Virus record (IMG/VR): IMGVR_UViG_3300042914_002111
Location: 1 to 23,576 of that record
Direction: 5' to 3' (one strand)
Length of the DNA stretch: 23,576 nt
Origin: a virus
Each line of letters begins with the position of its first letter. The stretch's first letter is position 1. Shown in pieces: positions 3,674 to 19,015 of the stretch. The position numbers and the translations under genes are program-made. Below the pieces are notes generated by a model, which did not search any database, was not told where the DNA came from, and worked only from the letters and a program-made list of their open reading frames with translations.

Positions 3674-3674
3674 A
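3663..3674 (+). promoter_or_regulatory. TTCCTATCATCA motif, copy 3
   Basis: Exact 12-mer whose last base is the A of the ATG start at 3674. CTAGGGCGTAAAC lies 6 bases upstream. The same word pair occurs at 4012-4038 with a 2-base gap. Confidence 0.45.
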
Positions 3675-4015
3675 TGGACATCTCCAAATACACAAACAAA
3701 ACCATCACCGCTGTCAGCTTCAACGACGGACTTTACCTGACATTTGATGACAAGTCACAATGTTATATCTATGACAACGCACAATACTGTTGCGAACGTC
3801 GATGGGCAACCTGTGACGATGACATCAATGTTCTCATCGGAGGACAGCTCATATCCATCGAAGTCACCGACATTGATTACGGTGCCGGAGAATCTGACTT
3901 TGATGAGGAAGACATTCAGTGCGTTAAAGTCCAAACCACCACAGGATTCATTACAATCTTCAATCACAACGAACACAACGGTTACTACGGCGGATTCAAA
4001 CTTGCCATCAGCTAG
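3674..4015 (+). CDS. DUF7448-like protein, 113 aa
   Basis: Function unknown. The layout resembles the phage family DUF7448 as I remember it: an N-terminal strand pair (ITAVSFNDGLYLTFDD), a Cys-Cys-Glu motif (YCCERR, residues about 38-43), then DDINVLIGGQLISIEV, an acidic turn (DFDEEDIQCVKVQT), and the C-terminal signature NEHNGYYGGF (residues about 98-107). It is a small soluble beta protein. The start overlaps the TTCCTATCATCA motif and has only a weak AGG site 11 bases upstream. The stop codon TAG lies inside the shared word CTAGGGCGTAAAC. Confidence 0.75.
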   Translation: MDISKYTNKTITAVSFNDGLYLTFDDKSQCYIYDNAQYCCERRWATCDDDINVLIGGQLISIEVTDIDYGAGESDFDEEDIQCVKVQTTTGFITIFNHNEHNGYYGGFKLAIS

Positions 4016-4222: not shown

Positions 4223-5101
4223 ATGACTCGTTACATTATCCGCCCTCAGGGCATAAACAAAACACCCCGGCTACTCAAGGAAGCCTTGAATGCTACACGA
4301 ACACTTCGATACCCTTTTGTTGGTCTACGGAGGCCTGATCGTCTTCGGGACTTTTTCCTGGTTTACCCCCCAGCAGAACAGCTAGAGAATTTCAATGCCC
4401 TCACCGAGAACCAGAGGAATACCTACCGATCCATACGGTCTTTCTCAGGAGGAAATAAGGCGTATCAACGCCGAAGTATTCAGAGCCTTGGGTTCCCCAT
4501 CCCTGAGACCTACACCTCCTCCGATACAACCCTTGGAATGGGAGTCTATATCGCTCGACCCCTCAGGCATTCCGGTGGAGCAGGGTACCGAATTATCCGA
4601 GGAAGTCCGCACTCAAATAATTCACAACACAGTATACGAAACCAGGTACCTAGCAACACCACAACCGAGGTATCCCAATCCTCCTTTCAGGAAACCGAAT
4701 CCTCAGCAAGTTGGGACCCCTCGTGTGAATACCTTCAAGAGTTTTATCCAAAGGACTATGAATACAGGATCATAGTCTCTAGGGGTGTTCCTATCATAAC
4801 GCTTCTCAAAAGAATTCCTGAATCACTCTCTAATGAAGCTCCCTGGAATCACTCTCAAGGTTCTTCTTTCGTTACCGTCAATAACATTGAAAACAACAGG
4901 CTCCGTCATACGGATATCTACGATCTCATCGGTAACAACTCGTTCTTCCATGGTGTCGATCTGTGCGGGATTGATGTCATGATGTCACGTAACCATGAAA
5001 AGCCGTACGTCATAACTGAGTTTAACTTTTGTCCAAGCATCACTATCCCAGACAACCTCACAAGGATCGCCAACCATGTCCAAGGTTCTGTTCTTCGCTG
5101 A
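4223..5101 (+). CDS. ATP-grasp ligase-like protein, 292 aa
   Basis: Probably an ATP-dependent carboxylate-amine ligase of the ATP-grasp fold, which activates a carboxylate as acyl phosphate and joins it to an amine. Seen: a pre-grasp LGFPIPET (89-96), the ATP-binding strand and glycine loop RPLRHSGGAGYR (112-123), then EYLQEFYPKDYEYRIIV (169-185) and GIDVMM (249-254). The metal-binding strand ITEFNFCPS (264-272) carries E266 and N268. Residues 127-166 form a Ser/Asn/Thr-rich insert in the glycine-loop region, and a second reading frame is open through it. The C-terminal 26 bases overlap the amidoligase gene, so the two are probably co-translated. The substrate is unknown. Neighbours suggest a peptide or gamma-glutamyl modification pathway. 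Confidence 0.75.
   Translation: MTRYIIRPQGINKTPRLLKEALNATRTLRYPFVGLRRPDRLRDFFLVYPPAEQLENFNALTENQRNTYRSIRSFSGGNKAYQRRSIQSLGFPIPETYTSSDTTLGMGVYIARPLRHSGGAGYRIIRGSPHSNNSQHSIRNQVPSNTTTEVSQSSFQETESSASWDPSCEYLQEFYPKDYEYRIIVSRGVPIITLLKRIPESLSNEAPWNHSQGSSFVTVNNIENNRLRHTDIYDLIGNNSFFHGVDLCGIDVMMSRNHEKPYVITEFNFCPSITIPDNLTRIANHVQGSVLR
4395..4775 (+). CDS. Possible overlapping gene inside the ATP-grasp gene
   Basis: A 126-codon frame lies entirely within the ATP-grasp gene in another phase. Its product has natural-looking composition: a helical start (YGLSQEEIRRINAEVFRALG), then a Pro/Glu-rich, probably disordered chain (PSLRPTPPPIQPLEWESISL) and a basic end. It covers the part of the host gene that encodes the low-complexity insert, as expected if overprinting relaxed that frame. 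No good Shine-Dalgarno is visible (only agagaattt). Shadow frames of similar length occur elsewhere in the window, so this is uncertain. Confidence 0.25.
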   Translation: MPSPRTRGIPTDPYGLSQEEIRRINAEVFRALGSPSLRPTPPPIQPLEWESISLDPSGIPVEQGTELSEEVRTQIIHNTVYETRYLATPQPRYPNPPFRKPNPQQVGTPRVNTFKSFIQRTMNTGS

Positions 5102-6857
5102 CAATACCATGACTTCTCTAAAGGAATTTACCCTTGAGGAATTCCTTGATCCCCGTGTCAATAAAATCTGGCAGCTTTCCGATGACCGTAGGATTCTCTC
5201 AGAAACTTATCACAAGCTGACACGCCAGTTGTTCTGCAAGGAAAATCTCATTGCGTTTCCTTATCAGTGTATCTACCAACTCAATGATTACCTTCTCCGT
5301 AATGATCGACAAGCTTTCTGTGACCATTTTCTCTCAGCCGTAAACCCTGAACTTGCATGGGTTTTCCAATACATTTATGTTTGGGGTATCGATCGTATAG
5401 ACAACAACTTCAGCGTGTTACTCAAACATCCACACTTTTCATCCAATACTAATGTTAGTAATAACCTTGTCAAATACGAGATATCTGACTGGACCCAAGT
5501 TAGGGTAAACAAAGACAACATCAACGAGCTTTTATCACGTCTTGCTAATAGTTACCAGATACTGTTCAATTCAACAGTAGGGCGTAAAACCCATCGCAAC
5601 TACGTCGAAGTTTACTGTCAATTTGGACAACACTTCCGTGACTTTCTTTTCCAACTAACAGTGTATACGTTATCTTCGGGTGACGGTTGCCGTATGCTTG
5701 ACCTTTTTGGTTACGGTCCTGAGCAAATGGTTTACTTCAACCACCCCCTTGACGATATCACCAAGAAAGGACTTATATTCAGCCTTATGCTAAGGCAGAA
5801 GATCACCAAAACCTTCCGCGACCCCCTGTACCGTGTCCTTTCCTACAGTACTCAGGCCACCAACCTGATCGACTGGCCTATTCTCGACAAGAACGAGAAG
5901 AACCCTGTTCTCTACGGCGTAGAGCTTGAGTGTGTCTCGGACTACAATGTCCGTCAGATCATTGATGCCCAGGCTATCCCGTTCTTCATTGCCAAGAGTG
6001 ACGGCAGTATCTCTGGTAGTAAGCGTAATGCCACTGAACTTGTGACTGTCCCAATGTCCCTAAAGGCACATAAGAAACACTGGGCACACTGGTTCCGTAA
6101 TATTGATTACAAGCAGTTCGACTGCACCAAGGATACCACCAATGGTCTTCACGTTCATATCGACCGTAAGGCCTTCATGAATGAACAGCATCTGCGGAAC
6201 ATGGTCTGGTTCTACACCAACCCTGCCAACACAGACTTCCTGCTGTACATCTCCGAGCGTGGGTCCCTTGAGCGTATGGCTCAGTACTCCCCGATCTACC
6301 AGTACCCCAGTTCCTTGAGTAAGGTCCGTGCCTTTAAGGACTGTACCCGATTGGTTGCTGGTACCCGTGGGATTGTGAATCTCTCAAAGACTGCGACGGT
6401 CGAAGTCCGCATGTTCCGTGGGATTGTCTCTTTCGGTGAACTCGTCAAGGACCTTGAGTTTGTCGATGCTGTGTTCCATTTCTGTGAGGGAGAACATTCC
6501 CTGAACAAACTAACGTTCCCGGACTTCCTGGTCTGGCTCTCACGTGAACCCATCAACAAATACACTATCCTCCGGAAGTTCATCGACCAGTGTAAGAACC
6601 TCCCTGACATGATCATTCACTCTGAAGTCAAGAGCATTGTGTTTAACCTCTCTGATCCCGATACTATCGTTGAACGTCTCAACAAGTCCAAGATCAAGAT
6701 CACCAATGCTCACGTAACGATCCTCAATAAAGGAAACAAACGGAAGTACATTCTCAATAAAGAAACAGGACTCATTGATGTCCTCCAGACAAACCTTTCC
6801 AAATTCGCCAAGCTCGACCGAGTCATCGAGTCCCGTTACACCCGTCACGCTATCTGA
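5076..6857 (+). CDS. Amidoligase (COOH-NH2 ligase), 593 aa
   Basis: Two-part protein. The N-terminal 265 residues are mostly helical and unrecognised. The C-terminal part matches the phage/bacterial amidoligase family (gamma-glutamylcysteine-synthetase/glutamine-synthetase fold). Seen: GVELE (281-285, acidic metal ligands), KSDGSI (307-312), ELVTVP (321-326), GLHVHIDR (357-364) and the strand TVEVRMFRG (441-449). Such enzymes use ATP to form an amide between a carboxylate and an amine. Base use shifts near 5870, from A+T-richer to more G+C-rich with CGT/AAG/ATC codons, close to the domain boundary, which hints at a fusion of parts with different histories. The start at 5076 is preferred over 5109 because AGGA lies upstream and it overlaps the previous gene. 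It is the core of the 4223-8608 cassette. Confidence 0.82.
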   Translation: MSKVLFFADNTMTSLKEFTLEEFLDPRVNKIWQLSDDRRILSETYHKLTRQLFCKENLIAFPYQCIYQLNDYLLRNDRQAFCDHFLSAVNPELAWVFQYIYVWGIDRIDNNFSVLLKHPHFSSNTNVSNNLVKYEISDWTQVRVNKDNINELLSRLANSYQILFNSTVGRKTHRNYVEVYCQFGQHFRDFLFQLTVYTLSSGDGCRMLDLFGYGPEQMVYFNHPLDDITKKGLIFSLMLRQKITKTFRDPLYRVLSYSTQATNLIDWPILDKNEKNPVLYGVELECVSDYNVRQIIDAQAIPFFIAKSDGSISGSKRNATELVTVPMSLKAHKKHWAHWFRNIDYKQFDCTKDTTNGLHVHIDRKAFMNEQHLRNMVWFYTNPANTDFLLYISERGSLERMAQYSPIYQYPSSLSKVRAFKDCTRLVAGTRGIVNLSKTATVEVRMFRGIVSFGELVKDLEFVDAVFHFCEGEHSLNKLTFPDFLVWLSREPINKYTILRKFIDQCKNLPDMIIHSEVKSIVFNLSDPDTIVERLNKSKIKITNAHVTILNKGNKRKYILNKETGLIDVLQTNLSKFAKLDRVIESRYTRHAI

Positions 6858-6866
6858 GGGCATCCT

Positions 6867-7982
6867 ATGTGTGTAATCATCGTCAAGAAACCTGACGTAA
6901 TCATTCCCTACGACAAGATCGACAGTGCCTGTGCTGTCAATAACGATGGCTGGGGCCTCTCGGTTCTTCAGGAACCAGGGAAACTTCTGAACTACAAAGG
7001 GTTCAAAGCATCAGGTAATGACCCTGATGAAATCTACGATCTCATTAACCGACATAAGGAACATACCCAATTCCTTCATCTTCGGTTCGTGACCAAGGGC
7101 GACAAGAACCTAGAAAATACTCATCCGTTCCCACTGATTGAGGAAGAAGACTACCAGCTTTACCTCATGCACAACGGGACACTGTCGTTCTCCAAGTTCG
7201 ATATCCCCGATGGTCAGTCTGATACCCGGGCTTTCTGTGAGCAGTACGCAAGTCCTACAGCCAAAGCGTTTTACACCGTAGCCGGTAAAGACCTCCTGAA
7301 TGACGTGAACTTCCTTCGCATGATGGATCACTTCATCAGTGCGTCCTGGTACTTCGCTCTCTACGATAACCTTGGTAACTACCGTGTCCTTGGTGGCCAG
7401 GGTCATTGGCACGACAGCGATACCTGGTGGTCTAGTAATACATACTCGTTCAATTCCAGCCATCGTATTGCCTACAGTAATAACGACTACCAAAACACTC
7501 ACTGGCATAACTGGGCCCGCGGAGAATCCTTTAACCGGGAACCCTTTCGGGACAACAAAGGCAAGCTCATCCGCTGGGACGCAGCTAAACATAAGTATGT
7601 TCCAGTCGAAGAAGAAGAAAAGAAAACGACGGTAACCAAGGCCACAACAACGACAACAACAGAAAAGGAGGTAGGCAAATCTGTGATTCCCTTTCTCAGC
7701 GAGAAAAACATTAAATCCCAAGGAGTTGCTCTTGGTTACGCACTATCAGAAGCCAAGCGAAAGGGTCTCGATTGGGCTTCACACACGCCACCTAAGGAAC
7801 GCCCGACCTTTACTGAACTCTGCGACCTCGATAACCTGGACCAAGCCTGTCTCCTCAACGAAGAAGATATTGAGGAACTCATTGGCAACTATCCAGAGGC
7901 TACTCTTATCCTAATCCTCGATCTTCTCCACGCTTTGTACTTCTCCAAGCGTGTAGCACAACAGAAAGAGCTTGCAGCATGA
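6867..7982 (+). CDS. Class II glutamine amidotransferase-like, 371 aa
   Basis: N-terminal nucleophile amidotransferase (GATase II fold), which releases ammonia from glutamine for a partner ligase. Seen: Met1 followed by the catalytic Cys2 (exposed after Met removal), NNDGWGL (25-31), HLRFVT (71-76, glutamine site), the HNG motif (102-104) and SDTRAF (118-123). The domain ends near residue 245. A Lys/Thr/Glu linker (about 247-270) leads to an unrecognised helical C-terminal domain (about 272-371). The start has GAGGG eight bases upstream, and the stop overlaps the next start (ATGA). It presumably works with the amidoligase and ATP-grasp proteins. No synthase or ligase domain is fused to it. 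Confidence 0.82.
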   Translation: MCVIIVKKPDVIIPYDKIDSACAVNNDGWGLSVLQEPGKLLNYKGFKASGNDPDEIYDLINRHKEHTQFLHLRFVTKGDKNLENTHPFPLIEEEDYQLYLMHNGTLSFSKFDIPDGQSDTRAFCEQYASPTAKAFYTVAGKDLLNDVNFLRMMDHFISASWYFALYDNLGNYRVLGGQGHWHDSDTWWSSNTYSFNSSHRIAYSNNDYQNTHWHNWARGESFNREPFRDNKGKLIRWDAAKHKYVPVEEEEKKTTVTKATTTTTTEKEVGKSVIPFLSEKNIKSQGVALGYALSEAKRKGLDWASHTPPKERPTFTELCDLDNLDQACLLNEEDIEELIGNYPEATLILILDLLHALYFSKRVAQQKELAA

Positions 7983-8608
7983 GTATCTTCCAAGTCCAGA
8001 GAAAGTCCCCGTCTACTACCCCTCCATCCATGGCCTGCTGGGACGACTACGAAGGCCTCAGTGCTGCCTTGTCAGAACGCTTTGAGGAAATCCCCGAGTA
8101 CTCCACCAGTACTTCTGACTTCCCTGAATTGATGAAGCACGATTCTCATTACATCTTTGTCTACGATGGGATGAAGCAAGGCTTCCGCCACGACAAGCAT
8201 CTCCTTGGATGTAAGCTTGTAGCTGTAGGGTACACCAAATATTACTTCACGATGTACCGTGAGGTCATTCAGAGTCGATACCAACAGCCTGTGGTTTTAC
8301 TCGGTGGTGGTCCCAAAGAACGGGCTGCTATCTACGGTGAGGTCTATCAAGTCTTCCCTGAGGTCATCGCAGAACTAGACTGGAAGGAGTCCAATGGCCC
8401 TATTGTTACTCGTAGGCGTGTTCCTGTTGACGCTACTGTGTCTAAAGACGGGACGATGAAGCAACTATATCCGTGGATGTACATCCACAAGAATACCTAC
8501 TGGGATTCCCGTTTCGACAGGTTACAACCAATGGATCAACTAACAGCCAACAGCAGCGGTATGAAGTACTATAATTTTCTCAAGAAATTTGAACAGGTGA
8601 CACAATGA
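7979..8608 (+). CDS. Gamma-glutamylcyclotransferase-like protein, 209 aa
   Basis: Resembles the GGCT/AIG2/BtrG fold, which removes a gamma-glutamyl group from an amine as 5-oxoproline. Seen: IFVYDGMKQGFRHDKHLL (59-76), in the place of the family's YGSL-x-G substrate loop. Then come a central strand (VGYTKYYFTMYR), PVVLLGGG (104-111), GEVYQV (120-125) and LDWKESN (133-139), the family's 'GEvy.v...L..LD..E' segment. The YGSL motif is altered to YDGM, so activity is uncertain. Start and stop overlap neighbours by ATGA on both sides, placing it firmly in the operon. With ATP-grasp, amidoligase and GATase II it completes a set known from aminoglycoside side-chain chemistry and proposed phage peptide-tagging systems. 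Confidence 0.72.
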   Translation: MSIFQVQRKSPSTTPPSMACWDDYEGLSAALSERFEEIPEYSTSTSDFPELMKHDSHYIFVYDGMKQGFRHDKHLLGCKLVAVGYTKYYFTMYREVIQSRYQQPVVLLGGGPKERAAIYGEVYQVFPEVIAELDWKESNGPIVTRRRVPVDATVSKDGTMKQLYPWMYIHKNTYWDSRFDRLQPMDQLTANSSGMKYYNFLKKFEQVTQ

Positions 8609-8763
8609 AGTGGGAATATCGTGTGTGTCGTGGGGATAATGGTATAGGCCCTTGGGAAGAAGAACGTATTCTCAATAGTCAGGGAAAAGACGGGTGGGAA
8701 CTAACTTCAGTTGTTATTGGCAATCGGTACACATGGTTTTATTTCAAGCGAGCAATTAATTGA
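8605..8763 (+). CDS. DUF4177-like small protein, 52 aa
   Basis: Short protein of the DUF4177 pattern: an N-terminal strand MKWEYRV, a helix with a Leu-Asn turn (ERILNSQGKDG), the signature GWELTSVV (residues about 31-38), and a final strand YTWFYFKR. The family's function is unknown. The start overlaps the preceding stop (ATGA), and the stop overlaps the TTG start of the next gene (TTGA). Confidence 0.7.
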   Translation: MKWEYRVCRGDNGIGPWEEERILNSQGKDGWELTSVVIGNRYTWFYFKRAIN

Positions 8764-8990
8764 GCAGATGCGCTATTTGTGATTACGTAGAAGGTCAATA
8801 CCATGGCTTTGCATACGTACCCCGTTTTAACACCAAAGTCCGCTGGCGTCCTAACCATAAGGAATTCCAGTGTGACGAATGTTACAATTCAATTTCAGCA
8901 TACCAGGACGCATTCCAGTCCCTTGAGGAAGGAGAAATAGAAACGCTCGACGATGTACCTGAAGACACACCAACCTTGCCCAAAGTGTAA
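8760..8990 (+). CDS. Zinc-ribbon protein, 76 aa, TTG start
   Basis: Small metal-binding protein with two Cys pairs, CAIC (residues 4-7) and CDEC (about 38-41), a zinc-ribbon arrangement, followed by an acidic tail (EEGEIETLDDVPED). It starts at TTG in a TTGA overlap with the previous stop; no ATG fits the frame. The last 38 bases overlap the primase-helicase gene. A role in replication or nucleic-acid binding is possible from context only. Confidence 0.65.
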   Translation: MSRCAICDYVEGQYHGFAYVPRFNTKVRWRPNHKEFQCDECYNSISAYQDAFQSLEEGEIETLDDVPEDTPTLPKV

Positions 8991-10548
8991 CTCAAGTGAC
9001 TCCCTTGCCATATACACTGATGGACATGGGTATTGTTTCTCTAATTGTGGTCATCTTGAAAGTTCTGAATTGACTGACGTAATTACAAGTGACTCTACGG
9101 GTGCTTCCTATCATCAAGGTTCTCCCCCAGATTTCTCTCAAAATTTCTCTTACCAGTACGTTTCCATGCGTGGTATCTCGACTGATACCATGGAAAAGTA
9201 CAAGTCTCTCACCAAGGTCGCAGAGGATGGTACCCCTGTCTCCATAGGGTTTCCATACTCTCCTGACGGCAATACCCTTAAAGTTCGTAACCTCTCTAAG
9301 AAAGAGTTTTACTCTGTAGGAGATATGAGAAATGCAACACTCTTCGGTAAGTCAGTCTTCCCAGCAGGCTCCTCTAAGTACATCACCATCACCGAGGGAG
9401 AGTTCGATGCCCTCGCTGCCTACCAAATGCTTGCATCCGGGTATCCTGTTGTCTCAATCCGCTCTTCGTCGTCTGCAAAGTCAGATTGCCAAAGAGAATT
9501 CGAATACCTCAACTCCTTCGAACGGATTTACCTCTGCCTAGATTCTGATGAGCCTGGTCAAAAAGCTACCAAAGAAATCTCCAGGCTTTTTGACTTCAAC
9601 AAAATTTACCACGTCCAATTAGACGCTTCCCTCAAAGACCCTAACAACTACCTCCTAGAAGGTAACTCAGATGTCTTCAAACGTACGTGGTGGAACGCAA
9701 AGAGGATTGTTCCTGAGGGTATTCTTTCTCAGTTGTCTGAGTTTGACGATATCATTGATCACTCGGAAAACAAGATCGGTGTTCCGTTTCCTTTCCCAAC
9801 CCTTCAAGAAAAAACTTACGGAATCAGAACTGGAGAAACTTACCTTTTCACTGCACTTGAAGGCATTGGAAAGACAGAGATCATTCGCGCAATTGAGTAT
9901 GACCTTCTACGAACTACAGACTCAAATATCGGCATTATCCATCTCGAAGAGGGAAAAGATCGAGTCCTTAAAGGCCTTGCAGGCTATGAACTCAAGACTC
10001 CAGCGCACCTCCCAGATTCAGGAGTAACCAATGACGACGTTAAAACTGCTTTACATAGCCTCATTAAGCGTGACGAACGGCTTCATATCTACAGTCATTT
10101 TGGCTCTGCTGATCCCGACCACATCCTGGACACTATACGATTTCTTGTCGCTTCTTGCGGGTGTCAGTATATCTTCCTTGATCACATTACTATGGTGGTA
10201 TCAGGACTTAAGGAAGATGATGAACGTAAAGCCCTGGACTACATCTCTACCCGATTAGCCATGATGGTCGAGGAGCTAGACTTCGCGCTTATCTTCGTCT
10301 CCCACATCAATGATCACGATCAGACCCGTGGCTCCAGGAATATCTCCAAGGTCGCAAAGACCTGGATCAAGCTTGTCCGTGACCAGAATGCCCCTACAGA
10401 AGAGGAACGCAACACAACACAATTAATAATCCAAAAGAACCGGTTCGGTGCCCATACAGGCCCAGCCGGTAAGGTTTACTTCGATATGAAGACCTTCATG
10501 GTCTCAGAAGACATCCCTGTAAAACTCCCTCCGGTGGAAAATGGATAA
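8953..10548 (+). CDS. T7 gp4-like primase-helicase, 531 aa
   Basis: Bifunctional replication protein: it makes RNA primers and unwinds DNA as a ring with the phage polymerase. The N-terminal zinc site has C9, C12, C28 and C32. The TOPRIM domain has TEGEFDA (147-153) and the LDSDEPG acidic motif (196-202). The RecA-like helicase has Walker A ALEGIGKTE (301-309, with Ala at the usual first Gly). Further on are an acidic HLEEGKDR segment, Walker B IFLDHITMV, and the SHINDHDQTRGSR loop typical of the DnaB/gp4 group. Length is close to T7 gp4 (566). The start lies within the zinc-ribbon gene, and the stop overlaps the next ATG. Confidence 0.93.
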   Translation: MYLKTHQPCPKCNSSDSLAIYTDGHGYCFSNCGHLESSELTDVITSDSTGASYHQGSPPDFSQNFSYQYVSMRGISTDTMEKYKSLTKVAEDGTPVSIGFPYSPDGNTLKVRNLSKKEFYSVGDMRNATLFGKSVFPAGSSKYITITEGEFDALAAYQMLASGYPVVSIRSSSSAKSDCQREFEYLNSFERIYLCLDSDEPGQKATKEISRLFDFNKIYHVQLDASLKDPNNYLLEGNSDVFKRTWWNAKRIVPEGILSQLSEFDDIIDHSENKIGVPFPFPTLQEKTYGIRTGETYLFTALEGIGKTEIIRAIEYDLLRTTDSNIGIIHLEEGKDRVLKGLAGYELKTPAHLPDSGVTNDDVKTALHSLIKRDERLHIYSHFGSADPDHILDTIRFLVASCGCQYIFLDHITMVVSGLKEDDERKALDYISTRLAMMVEELDFALIFVSHINDHDQTRGSRNISKVAKTWIKLVRDQNAPTEEERNTTQLIIQKNRFGAHTGPAGKVYFDMKTFMVSEDIPVKLPPVENG

Positions 10549-10723: not shown

Positions 10724-11055
10724 TGCTGACTGCCAAGGACCTCGCCCATAGATGGGGCATTTCATTGCCGACTATCTATAAGTTATTCTCCTCAGGTGCC
10801 CTCCCTGGTCTCAGGATATCCGCCAAGAATATCCGCTTCCGGGAAGAGGACGTTATCGCATACGAGAACTCAACGTGGAACCAAAGTACCGCCTCGTCAT
10901 CTACCGGGGAAAGTACGCCGTCTACTGGCGAGACGACCGAGGACGACCCCAGCGTAGCTCGCTTGGTACGACAGATGGAGAGAGTGCTAAACGAGGACTT
11001 TCAGAGTTCATCCGGCTCACTGAGCTTCGGAGGAGTTCCGGTCATCACACGATAG
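10723..11055 (+). CDS. Excisionase-like HTH protein
   Basis: The first 50 residues form a MerR/excisionase-type winged helix-turn-helix: LTAKDLAHRWGISLPTIYKL, then LPGLRISAKNIRFREEDVIAY, a wing with basic residues. Such proteins act as recombination directionality factors or regulators of int. Placement directly before the integrase fits. The remaining 60 codons are Ser/Thr/Glu-rich and share DNA with the start of the integrase gene in another frame for 181 bases. That tail may be disordered and carry little function. Start in a TAATG overlap. Confidence 0.75.
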   Translation: MLTAKDLAHRWGISLPTIYKLFSSGALPGLRISAKNIRFREEDVIAYENSTWNQSTASSSTGESTPSTGETTEDDPSVARLVRQMERVLNEDFQSSSGSLSFGGVPVITR

Positions 11056-11867
11056 CGTCCCTCTGGGATGCCCGTAGGAAGGCCCTGGGAGCCCGTAGGC
11101 TGGCAGAAAACATGGCCTATAGTGGGGTAGCTCTCCTGCCTGTACTTGGCTTCCTTGAGCCCCACAGCCTCAGCAAACAGCATATCCTAGAATACGAAGC
11201 CCTCAGGAAGGGGGAAGGCAAGGCCCCAGGGACAATCTGGACGGAGTTAAATCACCTCCGCATGACCCTGGCATGGGCCAAGAAGGAAAATCTGATCGCA
11301 GACTCTACGTCCTTCAGCCTTCCCCCAAGGCCACCTCCGAAGACAGAGTACCTCACCAAGGAGCAAGTCCGTGAGCTTACCGCCAGTGCCAAACTTCCCC
11401 ATCTTTCTCTCTTTATTCTTTTCGCTGTTGCTACTGGTGCACGCAATCGCGCGATCCTTGACTGTACCTGGGACCGTGTAGATTTTCAACGAGGTCTCAT
11501 TGATCTCCGTGTTCCGGGTGATGAGCACCGCAAGAATCGTGCCCTGGTACCCATCAACAATACCCTAAGGACTGCACTTGAGAAGCAATACCCCTTACGC
11601 CAATCCGATTATGTGGTCGAGTTTGCAGGCCGTCGAATACTCTCTGTCAAGAAATCCCTCAAGCGTCTTGCCGATGCTTGTGGCATCCCTAATGTTTCTC
11701 CTCATGTGTTCCGGCACTCAGCGGCAGTCTGGATGGCAGAGGCGGGAACTCCTATGGAAGAAATATCCCAGTATCTTGGGCACACTGACATCTCGGTGAC
11801 CCGTTCGGTATACGCCAGGTTTTCCCCTGGGTATCTTCGTAAAGCAGCATCAGCATTGGAGTTGTGA
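10875..11867 (+). CDS. int: Tyrosine-family phage integrase, 330 aa
   Basis: Site-specific recombinase that inserts and, with an excisionase, removes the phage genome at attP/attB. The N-terminal arm-binding-like domain is KYRLVIYRGKYAVYWRDD...SLGT (4-31). The core-binding helices span about 60-140. The catalytic set is R190 (ATGARNR), K220 (HRKNRA), H277 and R280 (HVFRH), H303 (LGHTD) and nucleophile Y313 (SVYARF). All expected residues are present, so it is probably active. The start at 10875 keeps the arm-binding domain, although it lies 181 bases inside the upstream gene. The attP core is 570 bases downstream. Confidence 0.93.
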   Translation: MEPKYRLVIYRGKYAVYWRDDRGRPQRSSLGTTDGESAKRGLSEFIRLTELRRSSGHHTIASLWDARRKALGARRLAENMAYSGVALLPVLGFLEPHSLSKQHILEYEALRKGEGKAPGTIWTELNHLRMTLAWAKKENLIADSTSFSLPPRPPPKTEYLTKEQVRELTASAKLPHLSLFILFAVATGARNRAILDCTWDRVDFQRGLIDLRVPGDEHRKNRALVPINNTLRTALEKQYPLRQSDYVVEFAGRRILSVKKSLKRLADACGIPNVSPHVFRHSAAVWMAEAGTPMEEISQYLGHTDISVTRSVYARFSPGYLRKAASALEL

Positions 11868-12707: not shown

Positions 12708-14597
12708 CTGTACTGCATCATTGATATTGAGACCGAGGGTCTAGAGAACCCTCAGAAAATCTGGGTCATTGTCTGTAAGGAGGTTTTCTCCGGGGCAGTC
12801 AAGACCTTCAAGAATGTCCACGAGAACCCAAAAGAATTTCTTACGTATGCGCAGTCTGTCTCTGTCTTTATTGGCCATAACATCATTGGCTTCGATTACC
12901 CTGTTCTCGTACGTCTTCTCGGTCTGGAGCCTAACAAACCTCTTGTCGATACTCTTGTTGTCTCTAGGCTTCTGAACTTCGAGATCGAGGGAGGTCATAG
13001 CCTAGAGGCCTGGGGTACCCGATTCAAATCTCCTAAGGGTACGTTCAAGGACTTCTCCCAGTACTCCCCTGAGATGGAGAAGTACTGCATCCAAGACACA
13101 GAGATCACGTATAAGCTCTACAAGCATTTTGAAGAGTACATCTTCTCTGACCAGTGGAAAGACGCCTTAAGGTTAGAGCACGACATGGCCCGCATATCCC
13201 AGGGTATGCACGAGACAGGCTTTGCTTTCGATGTCTCTACAGCAAGGAAACTATATGAAGAAATTGACCAAAGGGTTACGTCCCTCGACAATGAGTTGGT
13301 CGAATCCTTTCCCGCCAGGACCTCTTTGGTACGTGAGATTTCGCCTAAGGCGACTAAACATGGCACTCTCTCGCGAGTGGACTTTCGATGGACGGATGCT
13401 CATGATCTGTCCCCATACTCGGTCGGTGCGCCATTCTCTCTTATCGAGTATGTCCCGTTTAACCCGGGGAGCCCTAAACAAATTGTCGAACGCCTTAACG
13501 AAGCGGGCTGGAAACCTTTCGAAAAAACGAAGGGTCATATCCAATGCGAAAGGGACCTCCGTAGGTGCCGTGACAACCAGCAAAGGGAAATCCTGGAGGA
13601 ACGCCTCAAGGAATACCAAAGGATTGGTTGGAAGGTCTCGGAAGACAACCTAAAGACACTGCCTAAAGATGCCCCAGAAGCCTCCAGGAAGCTCGCACAG
13701 AGGCTTCTTCTCGCCTCCCGTAGGAGTACCCTCAACGAGTGGCTCACCGCCTACAACACCACCACAGGACGAATCCATGGCAGATTTCTGCACATTGGGG
13801 CATGGACCCAAAGGATGTCTCATGCTGGACCCAATATGGCGAACATCCCCAGCGGAGATACCGAGTACGCTACAGAAATGCGGAGTCTGTGGACAGTCCC
13901 TAAGAATAAGCTACTTGTAGGCGTAGACGCCGATGGTATCCAGCTACGTATCCTTGCCCACTACATGAATGACAAGGTCTTCACCGAGGCTTTGATCAAT
14001 GGTAGTAAGTCCAACGGTACTGATGCCCATACCCTTAACATGAAAGCCCTGGGGTATGTCTGTAAGTCCCGTGACGTAGCCAAGACCTTTATCTATGCCT
14101 GGCTCCTGGGTGCTGGTATCCCAAAGATAGCCAGTATCCTTGGATGCACTAACGAAGAAGCCCGTATAGCCTGCGATAACTTCCTCAAGGCATACCCAGG
14201 ATTACAACAACTAAAGCAAGAACAAATACCATACGATGCTAACCGAGGGTACTTCGTAGGTCTAGACAAACGACTGGTTTTATGTAATAATGAACATCTA
14301 ATGCTGGCCGGATACCTCCAGAACGGCGAAGCAATAGCGATGAAGAAGGCCAACGTACTCTGGAGGAAACAACTAACTGAAGAACGCGTACCATATTGGC
14401 AGGTAAACTTTGTACATGACGAGTGGCAAACTGAGACCATAAACGATATTTCCGTAGCACGGTACATAGCGAAGGTCCAAGCAGACTCTTTACGCATAGT
14501 AGGAGAACACTTAGGACTTAACTGCCCTCTAGCTGGTAGTACAGTAAACTCCCACAACCAAGAAACAATAGGGACCAACTGGCACCAGACCCATTAG
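12708..14597 (+). CDS. T7-like family A DNA polymerase, 629 aa
   Basis: Replicative polymerase with 3'-5' exonuclease. Exo I is DIETEG (D6, E8), Exo II GHNIIGFDYPVL and Exo III YCIQDTEITY. The polymerase part has MSHAGPNMANIP, motif A VDADGIQLR (D407), motif B RDVAKTFIYAWLLGAG (R455, K459, Y463) and motif C NFVHDEW. The frame is open without ATG from 12648 to 13074, and Exo I lies near its upstream end. I therefore place the start at CTG 12708, six bases after AGG. Starting at ATG 13074 would delete the exonuclease. Motif A has Gln412 where T7 has Glu480. Motif B keeps Tyr at the T7 Tyr526 position but has Leu at Tyr530. Slightly shorter than T7 gp5 (704). Confidence 0.92.
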   Translation: MYCIIDIETEGLENPQKIWVIVCKEVFSGAVKTFKNVHENPKEFLTYAQSVSVFIGHNIIGFDYPVLVRLLGLEPNKPLVDTLVVSRLLNFEIEGGHSLEAWGTRFKSPKGTFKDFSQYSPEMEKYCIQDTEITYKLYKHFEEYIFSDQWKDALRLEHDMARISQGMHETGFAFDVSTARKLYEEIDQRVTSLDNELVESFPARTSLVREISPKATKHGTLSRVDFRWTDAHDLSPYSVGAPFSLIEYVPFNPGSPKQIVERLNEAGWKPFEKTKGHIQCERDLRRCRDNQQREILEERLKEYQRIGWKVSEDNLKTLPKDAPEASRKLAQRLLLASRRSTLNEWLTAYNTTTGRIHGRFLHIGAWTQRMSHAGPNMANIPSGDTEYATEMRSLWTVPKNKLLVGVDADGIQLRILAHYMNDKVFTEALINGSKSNGTDAHTLNMKALGYVCKSRDVAKTFIYAWLLGAGIPKIASILGCTNEEARIACDNFLKAYPGLQQLKQEQIPYDANRGYFVGLDKRLVLCNNEHLMLAGYLQNGEAIAMKKANVLWRKQLTEERVPYWQVNFVHDEWQTETINDISVARYIAKVQADSLRIVGEHLGLNCPLAGSTVNSHNQETIGTNWHQTH

Positions 14598-15528: not shown

Positions 15529-15604
15529 AGGCCTTAAGCATTAAGGGGCGATGCACTGGTCTCCAAAACCGGGTAGCCAGGTTCGAGTCCTGGAAGGTCT
15601 GCCA
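15529..15604 (+). tRNA. trnW: tRNA-Trp(CCA)
   Basis: Cloverleaf read by eye: acceptor AGGCCTT with AAGGTCT (one G-U), D stem GCAT/ATGC with GGGG in its loop, anticodon stem CTGGT/ACCGG with loop CTCCAAA (anticodon CCA). The variable loop is 4 nt, the T arm CCAGG-TTCGAGT-CCTGG, then G73 and encoded CCA. Position 8 is A instead of the near-universal U, and CCTTAA-gca-TTAAGG (15532-15546) offers a competing hairpin at the 5' end. The anticodon-to-3' half is very close to bacterial tRNA-Trp. Confidence 0.85.
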
Positions 15605-18158: not shown

Positions 18159-18363
18159 GCAAAGAATGTACAGTATCAGTCGTAGTAATATGTCTGCTGC
18201 TGTTGAACAATTCCTAAAGTCCATGAGCATTCTTAACGATAATGAATACGGTGACGTAACCGAGATTAAGTTCAATAAACGTATTGGTGACTGGTCAGTT
18301 TACCTTCAGGTTCATAATGAGCGTCAGCTAGAACTTCCTTTGGGTAACCCACTTGCACGCTGA
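18151..18363 (+). CDS. Hypothetical protein, 70 aa
   Basis: Unrecognised. The start is GTG 18151, with GAGG eight bases upstream; an in-frame ATG at 18166 is the alternative. An N-terminal helix (AAVEQFLKSMSIL) is followed by a strand pair (DVTEIKFNKRIGDWSVYLQV). It overlaps the thyX start by 11 bases, so it is co-translated with nucleotide-metabolism genes. Confidence 0.6.
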   Translation: MSEQRMYSISRSNMSAAVEQFLKSMSILNDNEYGDVTEIKFNKRIGDWSVYLQVHNERQLELPLGNPLAR

Positions 18364-19015
18364 ACTGTCCCTCGGTTCCCTCAGAACGGAATTAATCGAC
18401 TCCATGGGTTCGGACCTTACTGTAGTCAATGCTGCTAGGGTATCTTTCGATAAGTCTTCAGAAAACTATTCTGAAACTTCAAATCACAATTTGATTAAGT
18501 ACCTTGCAACACATAATCATTGGACGCCTTTCGCCCATTGTGTAGTAACTCTACGAGAGACTGTTCCAATTTTTGTTGCCAGACAACGTTTCAAATCGAC
18601 CGTAGGCTTTACCTACAATGAAATCTCCAGGCGATACGTAGACTCAACCCCTGAATTCTACATCCCTGAGAACAACGAGTGGAGGCTAAAGGCAGAGAGC
18701 AAGAAGCAGGGTTCGTCAAATGAAACCACGCCAGTCAATCCTGTTCTTATGTGGGAATATTACGACCAATGTAAACAACTGTACGGAAAACTTCTCCATA
18801 TGGGTGTTGCTCCCGAACAGGCGCGAATGGTTCTGCCTCAGAGTATGTATACCTCATATTATGTTACTGGAAGCCTAGCTGCCTGGGCTCGTGCCTATAA
18901 GCTCCGGTCCTCTGAGGATGCCCAGTCCGAGATACGTACTCTGGCGTCTCAGTGGGATGATATCATTAAACCCTTATTCCCCGTGTCATGGGAGGCACTT
19001 ACTAGCAATGGCTAG
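18353..19015 (+). CDS. thyX: Flavin-dependent thymidylate synthase
   Basis: Makes dTMP from dUMP with methylene-tetrahydrofolate, FAD and NADPH. The ThyX signature appears as RQRFKSTVGFTYNEISRRY (77-95), a variant of RHRxxSxNExSxRY with a longer middle, a form I associate with phage enzymes. Also seen: NHWTPFAHCVV (55-65, FAD-site His) and the C-terminal ARMVLPQSMYTSYY. The length of 220 residues is normal. It starts at TTG within the preceding gene. It supplies dTTP together with the ribonucleotide reductase and MazG downstream. Confidence 0.92.
   Translation: MHAELSLGSLRTELIDSMGSDLTVVNAARVSFDKSSENYSETSNHNLIKYLATHNHWTPFAHCVVTLRETVPIFVARQRFKSTVGFTYNEISRRYVDSTPEFYIPENNEWRLKAESKKQGSSNETTPVNPVLMWEYYDQCKQLYGKLLHMGVAPEQARMVLPQSMYTSYYVTGSLAAWARAYKLRSSEDAQSEIRTLASQWDDIIKPLFPVSWEALTSNG

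Follow-up and report, generated by a model that had tools for sequence, protein, structure and literature searches.

A four-gene ATP-grasp, amidoligase, GATase and GGCT-fold locus in an IMG/VR virus record: a probable short and divergent copy of the phage peptide-bond cassette

The IMG/VR virus record IMGVR_UViG_3300042914_002111 (23,576 bases, analysed at its full length and called the window below; no end repeats were noted) carries four consecutive genes upstream of a primase-helicase, encoding an ATP-grasp ligase, an amidoligase, a class II glutamine amidotransferase (GATase) and a protein of the GGCT fold. We assign this locus to the phage peptide-bond cassette family with great confidence: Amidoligase_2, ATP-grasp and GATase are encoded together near replication genes. 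Probably it is a shorter, diverged form of the known cassette (amidoligase/ATP-grasp/GATase II/GGCT), which is on record from dozens of phages. A first-pass annotation, made from the sequence alone, had placed four enzyme genes at 4223-8608, and all four open reading frames (ORFs) lie there, on the + strand, in this order:

4223-5101, + strand: ATP-grasp ligase (RimK / alpha-L-glutamate-ligase-like), 292 aa; HMM and residue alignment
5076-6857, + strand: Amidoligase_2 (GCS2/glutamine-synthetase-like) ligase, 593 aa; PHROG, residue alignment, model core
5076-5870, + strand: N-terminal part of the amidoligase, 265 residues; no confident homologue
6867-7982, + strand: class II glutamine amidotransferase (GATase; N-terminal nucleophile, Ntn), 371 aa; Pfam GATase_4, residues
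7979-8608, + strand: GGCT/GGACT (AIG2-like) fold protein, 209 aa; Pfam GGACT, Foldseek, residue table

The four ORFs are not a product of chance: they are long, and their order and neighbours recur in other phages. They had been described as four overlapping genes, which holds for the outer junctions (overlaps of 26 nt and of 4 nt, the latter ATGA), but a gap of 9 nt separates amidoligase and GATase.

The ATP-grasp and amidoligase assignments are secured because homologues support both, through hidden Markov models (HMMs) and aligned catalytic residues. Taken alone, the window ATP-grasp stays under the Pfam cut-off (0.053), and tblastn of the phage collection gave no matches with it or with the GGCT-like protein; related phage proteins were reached via phage phiM6. 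An HMM with phiM6/RIO-1/PA11-type homologues, which has the window sequence in its seed, recovers the ATP-grasp at 2e-58, and tblastn against the RIO-1 ATP-grasp provides independent, weaker support (E 4e-4). The alignment took in proteins of phiM6, RIO-1, TC6, CW02, CVT22 and IMG/VR, and K177, E180, R182, K196, D246, D251, E266 and N268 are invariant across 12 phage ATP-grasps. The ATP/Mg residues expected of a RimK-like ATP-grasp (Lys, Glu, Asp, Glu-x-Asn) are present in the window protein, which has a low-complexity insert at residues ~130-165, and the family profile matches RimK-type glutamate ligases, cyanophycin synthase and MdnB in the PDB.

The window amidoligase alone likewise falls under the Pfam cut-off (Amidoligase_2, 0.022). 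PHROG_16683, as independent but weaker support, matches its residues 279-496 at 2.4e-17, and an HMM including phiM6/RIO-1 homologues, again with the window sequence in the seed, recovers it at 7e-89. Its catalytic part comprises residues ~275-510, and GxExE (281-285), D309, E321, HVH (359-361), R395, E443 and R445 are invariant in 13 phage amidoligase homologues. The protein thus has the metal/ATP residues of the Amidoligase_2/GCS2 group (GxExE, HVH, ExR), and the core of its low-confidence model resembles YbdK/GCS2 (YbdK E 2e-5) and glutamine synthetase. The AlphaFold model of the N-terminus is unusable, with a predicted local distance difference test (pLDDT) score of 24-46. This 265-residue part is missing from phiM6-type amidoligases. 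N-terminal extensions are also found in the amidoligases of MEP401/402, ctgrD200 and the record L090, without confident similarity to that of the window; kinship to those of MEP402, ctgrD200 and L090 was rejected (best 33% over 36 aa, E 0.03).

The other two proteins score above the Pfam cut-offs: the GATase with GATase_4 (2e-5) and the GGCT-like protein with GGACT (7.7e-9). The GATase has the class II traits of an N-terminal Cys (after Met removal), HxR, NG and Asp, and Cys2, H71, R73, N103, G104 and D119 are kept in 14/14 complete cassettes. Judged from these alignments, the predicted catalytic residues of ATP-grasp, amidoligase and GATase are intact and conserved. The AlphaFold model of the GGCT-like protein has a mean pLDDT of 68.6 (core mostly 80-95), and Foldseek relates it to the GGACT/GGCT structures 1vkb, 3cry and 3juc (E 3e-5 to 2e-4). 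The window protein shares this fold and the LDxxE motif, with its catalytic Glu (E137), with human A2LD1 (3jub) and GGCT (2rbh); E137 corresponds to position E82 of human GGACT, of which an E82Q structure (3jud) exists. The gamma-glutamyl-binding loop, YG(S/T)L in GGACT/GGCT, is not kept: the window has YDGM (residues 62-65) and has lost the glycine. Because of this alteration we file the protein as GGCT-fold and not as a cyclotransferase. Profiles, aligned residues and the GGCT fold agree with the four identities given in the first-pass annotation. As to the folds it expected, that of GGCT was recovered by AlphaFold and Foldseek and the amidoligase core looks GCS-like in the low-confidence model, but the amidoligase N-terminus yielded nothing of use.

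The YDGM loop had been singled out as a novelty to explain. The glycine is indeed lost in the window, but this follows a family trend and is not unique to it: the catalytic Glu is lost in seven of eight GGCT proteins without the loop glycine versus two among the 17 that have the glycine (Fisher p 0.0005, also with near-copies dropped, kinship being otherwise ignored). The window protein is the exception, in which the glycine is gone and the Glu kept. Among the complete cassettes the Glu is replaced by Met in L015, L019 and L105 and by Gln in L111. An Asn two positions after the Glu (N139) is kept in the GGCT proteins associated with the GATase pair, but not in stand-alone canonical ones. The GGCT gene directly follows the GATase gene in every cassette with this pair type, usually overlapping it (apparent long overlaps reflect first-possible starts), and because this adjacency and order are constant they suggest that GATase and GGCT form one physical unit.

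The combination of the four genes is not unremarked, since such cassettes are reported for phiM6 (PMC6256558) and UFV-P2 (PMC3890496) and in PMC5498523. The link drawn at first pass to the phage amidoligase systems of Iyer, Aravind and colleagues is right. The cassette also has a name in the literature: PMC5498523 describes a seven-gene 'Peptidoglycan Modification Cassette', GGCT included, in RIO-1-like podoviruses. The phiM6 paper counts 7 ORFs for peptide-bond synthesis and refers to a suggested role in peptidoglycan (PMC6256558). Iyer 2009 and Hardies 2013 appear as cassette sources in passages of PMC5498523 and PMC6256558.

Co-occurrence of the four genes beside a primase-helicase was found in phiM6, in Rhizobium phages and in IMG/VR records. 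In the Sinorhizobium phage phiM6 (MH700630, SmphiM6_70 to _80) and in the Rhizobium phages RHph_I3_11, N3_13 and N3_19 the same four families adjoin a T7-like primase-helicase; in phiM6 amidoligase, ATP-grasp, GATase and GGCT are SmphiM6_73 to _70, just ahead of it, and the GGCT of RHph_I3_11 and N3_13 is annotated merely as hypothetical. GATase II is followed by GGCT with a 4-nt overlap in both phiM6 and the window. In contrast to the window, phiM6 has the order of amidoligase and ATP-grasp swapped, lacks the 265-aa N-terminus, has YGDM in place of YDGM in the GGCT loop, and possesses a COOH-NH2-ligase-like gene (_76), a class I GATase (_79), a second GATase II (_78) and a ~200-aa gene (_75). 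The window primase-helicase is 41% identical to those of phiM6-type phages; the window phage is distantly related to phiM6, and its cassette lies in the DNA-replication part. In IMG/VR, the four genes stand beside the primase-helicase in L015, L016, L018, L019, L105, L107, L109 and L111-L113, the available flank of L113 stopping before any primase. The window order, with ATP-grasp first, is the same as in L018; amidoligase comes first in most relatives, and ATP-grasp is last in L112 and L113. An ATP-grasp of phiM6 type occurs in 309 of 50,697 phage records, and an amidoligase of that type in 284. Scans of IMG/VR with single proteins, and some with alignments, gave no relatives, and neither did a scan of bacterial genomes with the GATase.

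Other phages share the cassette in part. RIO-1/PSA-HP1, PA11, CW02 and phiEco32 have Amidoligase_2, ATP-grasp, GATase and in some cases GGCT/AIG2 beside the primase-helicase; their version comprises seven genes including a phiEco32-type COOH-NH2 ligase, and its GATase differs from the GGCT-paired type of the window. The LUZ24-like phage UFV-P2 has amidoligase, GATase II, ATP-grasp and an AIG2/GGCT_like ORF followed by primase/helicase (PMC3890496), and differs from the window in a COOH-NH2 ligase, an HNH insertion and a small (131 aa) AIG2 protein. In the OM43 phages MEP401/MEP402 and in ctgrD200, an amidoligase with a long N-terminus, which unlike that of the window bears CxxC motifs, precedes a GATase of the window's type; no ATP-grasp or GGCT was found in the regions examined. 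A related phage (L100:1764-9705, the record of L020; 52% primase identity) has a long cassette of canonical GGCT, class I GATase, GATase II, COOH-NH2 ligase, amidoligase and ATP-grasp.

A further set of related phages carries a degenerate form of the GATase-GGCT pair. In L021/L022, L023, L026 and L045 the gene preceding GGCT encodes a protein of 479-555 aa (truncated in L022), for which a Pfam scan of L021 and L045 gave no match. Compared with the GATase profile by hhalign, the N-terminal part of this protein nonetheless reaches probabilities of 93.8 and 89.8% (P 1.7e-7 and 1.8e-6), against 0.1-0.2% for unrelated control proteins. These GATases have lost Cys1, the Arg, the Asn and most of the remaining site residues, and their GGCT partners have Lys, Met, Lys or His where the catalytic Glu stood. 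The pairs, each a degenerate GATase II with a Glu-less GGCT just upstream of the primase-helicase, are located as follows:

L021:5272-7478
L023:5998-8400
L026:3214-5504
L045:6688-8996

Searches of these records, which are 11-48 kb long and several of which are fragments, gave neither an ATP-grasp nor an amidoligase. Together with L024, L021-L023, L026 and L045 form a clade with 100/100 support in the primase tree, inside a larger primase group that contains the window, whose exact position the tree does not settle. Catalytic loss in relatives, which had been named at first pass as evidence to look for against its reading, thus occurs in GGCT, and in GATase plus GGCT in this neighbouring clade, but not in the ligases or in the GATases of complete cassettes.

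Read from directly observed gene content, residue conservation, GGCT-like fold and gene order, the catalytic steps, target and purpose would be the following. The GATase, given its intact site, would hydrolyse glutamine and either supply ammonia or hold the gamma-glutamyl group; amidoligase and ATP-grasp, whose sites are likewise intact, would each activate a carboxylate with ATP and join it to an amine; the GGCT-like protein would act as partner of the GATase, binding or trimming a gamma-glutamyl end, and may have ceased to be an efficient cyclotransferase. A host peptide, amidated or aminoacylated while the phage replicates, is the most probable product. The locus would most likely serve an early amide-bond modification of a host molecule. 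The peptidoglycan stem peptide is the leading, if tentative, candidate for the target; its role in the literature is a proposal only (PMC6256558, PMC5498523).

Several observations weigh against this reading. The window cassette is only ~20-30% identical to its relatives, and the GGCT catalytic Glu is replaced in 4/14 complete cassettes. Searches of the window fragment by tblastn and HMM detected no COOH-NH2 ligase, class I GATase, second GATase II or ~190-aa gene, while profiles for those long-cassette genes match most relatives; the genes may lie elsewhere, as the fragment includes only 4.2 kb upstream. A phiEco32-type COOH-NH2 ligase and a class I GATase mark the long version and do not occur in all published cassettes. 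With several published members lacking, the chemistry may differ. In the literature found there is no experimental support for peptidoglycan or any other target, and our searches returned no worked-out cassette function and no link to DNA modification.

Other substrates can be considered. The cassette might modify a small molecule, a nucleotide or a phage DNA base, for example by amidation or aminoacylation of a nucleotide precursor, instead of peptidoglycan. In nearly all relatives whose sequence extends far enough, it has primase-helicase and DNA polymerase as neighbours, and the window also encodes ThyX, MazG and ribonucleotide reductase; these are, however, ordinary nucleotide-supply genes, no hallmark gene of base hypermodification was seen in the window, and early phage genes often lie near replication genes whatever their function. 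This explanation is unlikely. We are similarly doubtful that residues are ligated onto a host or phage protein, for instance by tailing a ribosomal or translation protein in the manner of RimK: the solved structures nearest to the ATP-grasp family are those of RimK, cyanophycin synthase and ATP-grasp peptide maturases, but the whole branch of ATP-grasp enzymes resembles RimK, a likeness that does not tell which acceptor is used, and no precursor peptide gene was recognised adjoining the ATP-grasp. The butirosin analogy of the first-pass annotation, in which a ligase adds a gamma-glutamyl group and GGCT removes it as 5-oxoproline, can draw on ATP-grasp and GGCT in one operon and on the retained E137. 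It proved weak and is very improbable, given the Glu replacements in complete cassettes, the lost loop glycine, and the failure to recognise carrier-protein or aminoglycoside genes in the window; a butirosin-type pathway was rejected, with no acyl carrier protein (ACP)-linked or partner genes among the window ORFs scanned with Pfam.

Alternatively, GATase and GGCT might form a mainly non-catalytic complex, with a binding or regulatory role near the replication machinery, to which the ligases are a separable addition. The GATase-GGCT order is constant and the ligase order variable, and the supported clade described above has retained GATase and GGCT although their catalytic residues are gone and no ligases were found. 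On the other hand, GATase and ligases have all stayed intact in the window, the degenerate pair may represent secondary loss in one clade, and several of its records are fragments; we consider this complex improbable. It is no more than a speculation, and one we hold to be unlikely, that in this phage group the GATase II-GGCT unit keeps a role beside the replication machinery after its chemistry is lost; with the same reserve, the window, having an intact GATase and a GGCT without loop glycine, might be seen as an intermediate.

The first-pass annotation put the cassette next to the primase-helicase; it does lie upstream of that gene, but two small ORFs intervene. The flanking features are:

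3674-4015, upstream of the cassette: DUF7448 protein (Pfam 1.4e-12)
8605-8763, + strand: DUF4177-like small ORF, 52 aa (Pfam DUF4177 7.8e-5, just under the cut-off); its start overlaps the GGCT stop
8760-8990, + strand: ORF with two CxxC pairs, 76 aa; TTG start overlapping the preceding stop
8953-10548, + strand: T7-like primase-helicase (PHROG_239 4.4e-141)

The 76-aa ORF is possibly a zinc ribbon, judging from its CxxC pairs; a Pfam scan gave no match. The window further encodes a family A DNA polymerase, an integrase, a Cas4-like exonuclease, ribonucleotide reductase and tRNA-Trp. The polymerase ORF (13074-14597, 507 aa) starts within the apparent end of an exonuclease domain, most of which is missing and may be encoded separately or upstream. 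The tyrosine integrase (10875-11867) and the tRNA-Trp (cca; 15529-15604) make a temperate phage or an integrated ancestor possible. ThyX (18353-19015) shares 47% identity with a region of Vibrio phage vB_ValP_IME271, and that phage, too, has a cassette of the same kind. Sigma-70-like promoters showed no excess over shuffles in the cassette region, and a PADLOC scan of the window matched no anti-phage defence family.

The cassette is present in about 300 sequenced phages, and we found no paper that establishes its substrate. The window contributes a shorter version. Its relatives reveal that GATase and GGCT stay together, and which residues can be dispensed with, and this reduces the choice of candidates for expression and testing. 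That both partners lose catalytic residues in related phages is a new detail and the part worth following: if the role of the GATase II-GGCT unit does outlive its chemistry, the cassette would be a gamma-glutamyl-binding complex with optional catalysis, and not simply a cell-wall tailoring pathway.

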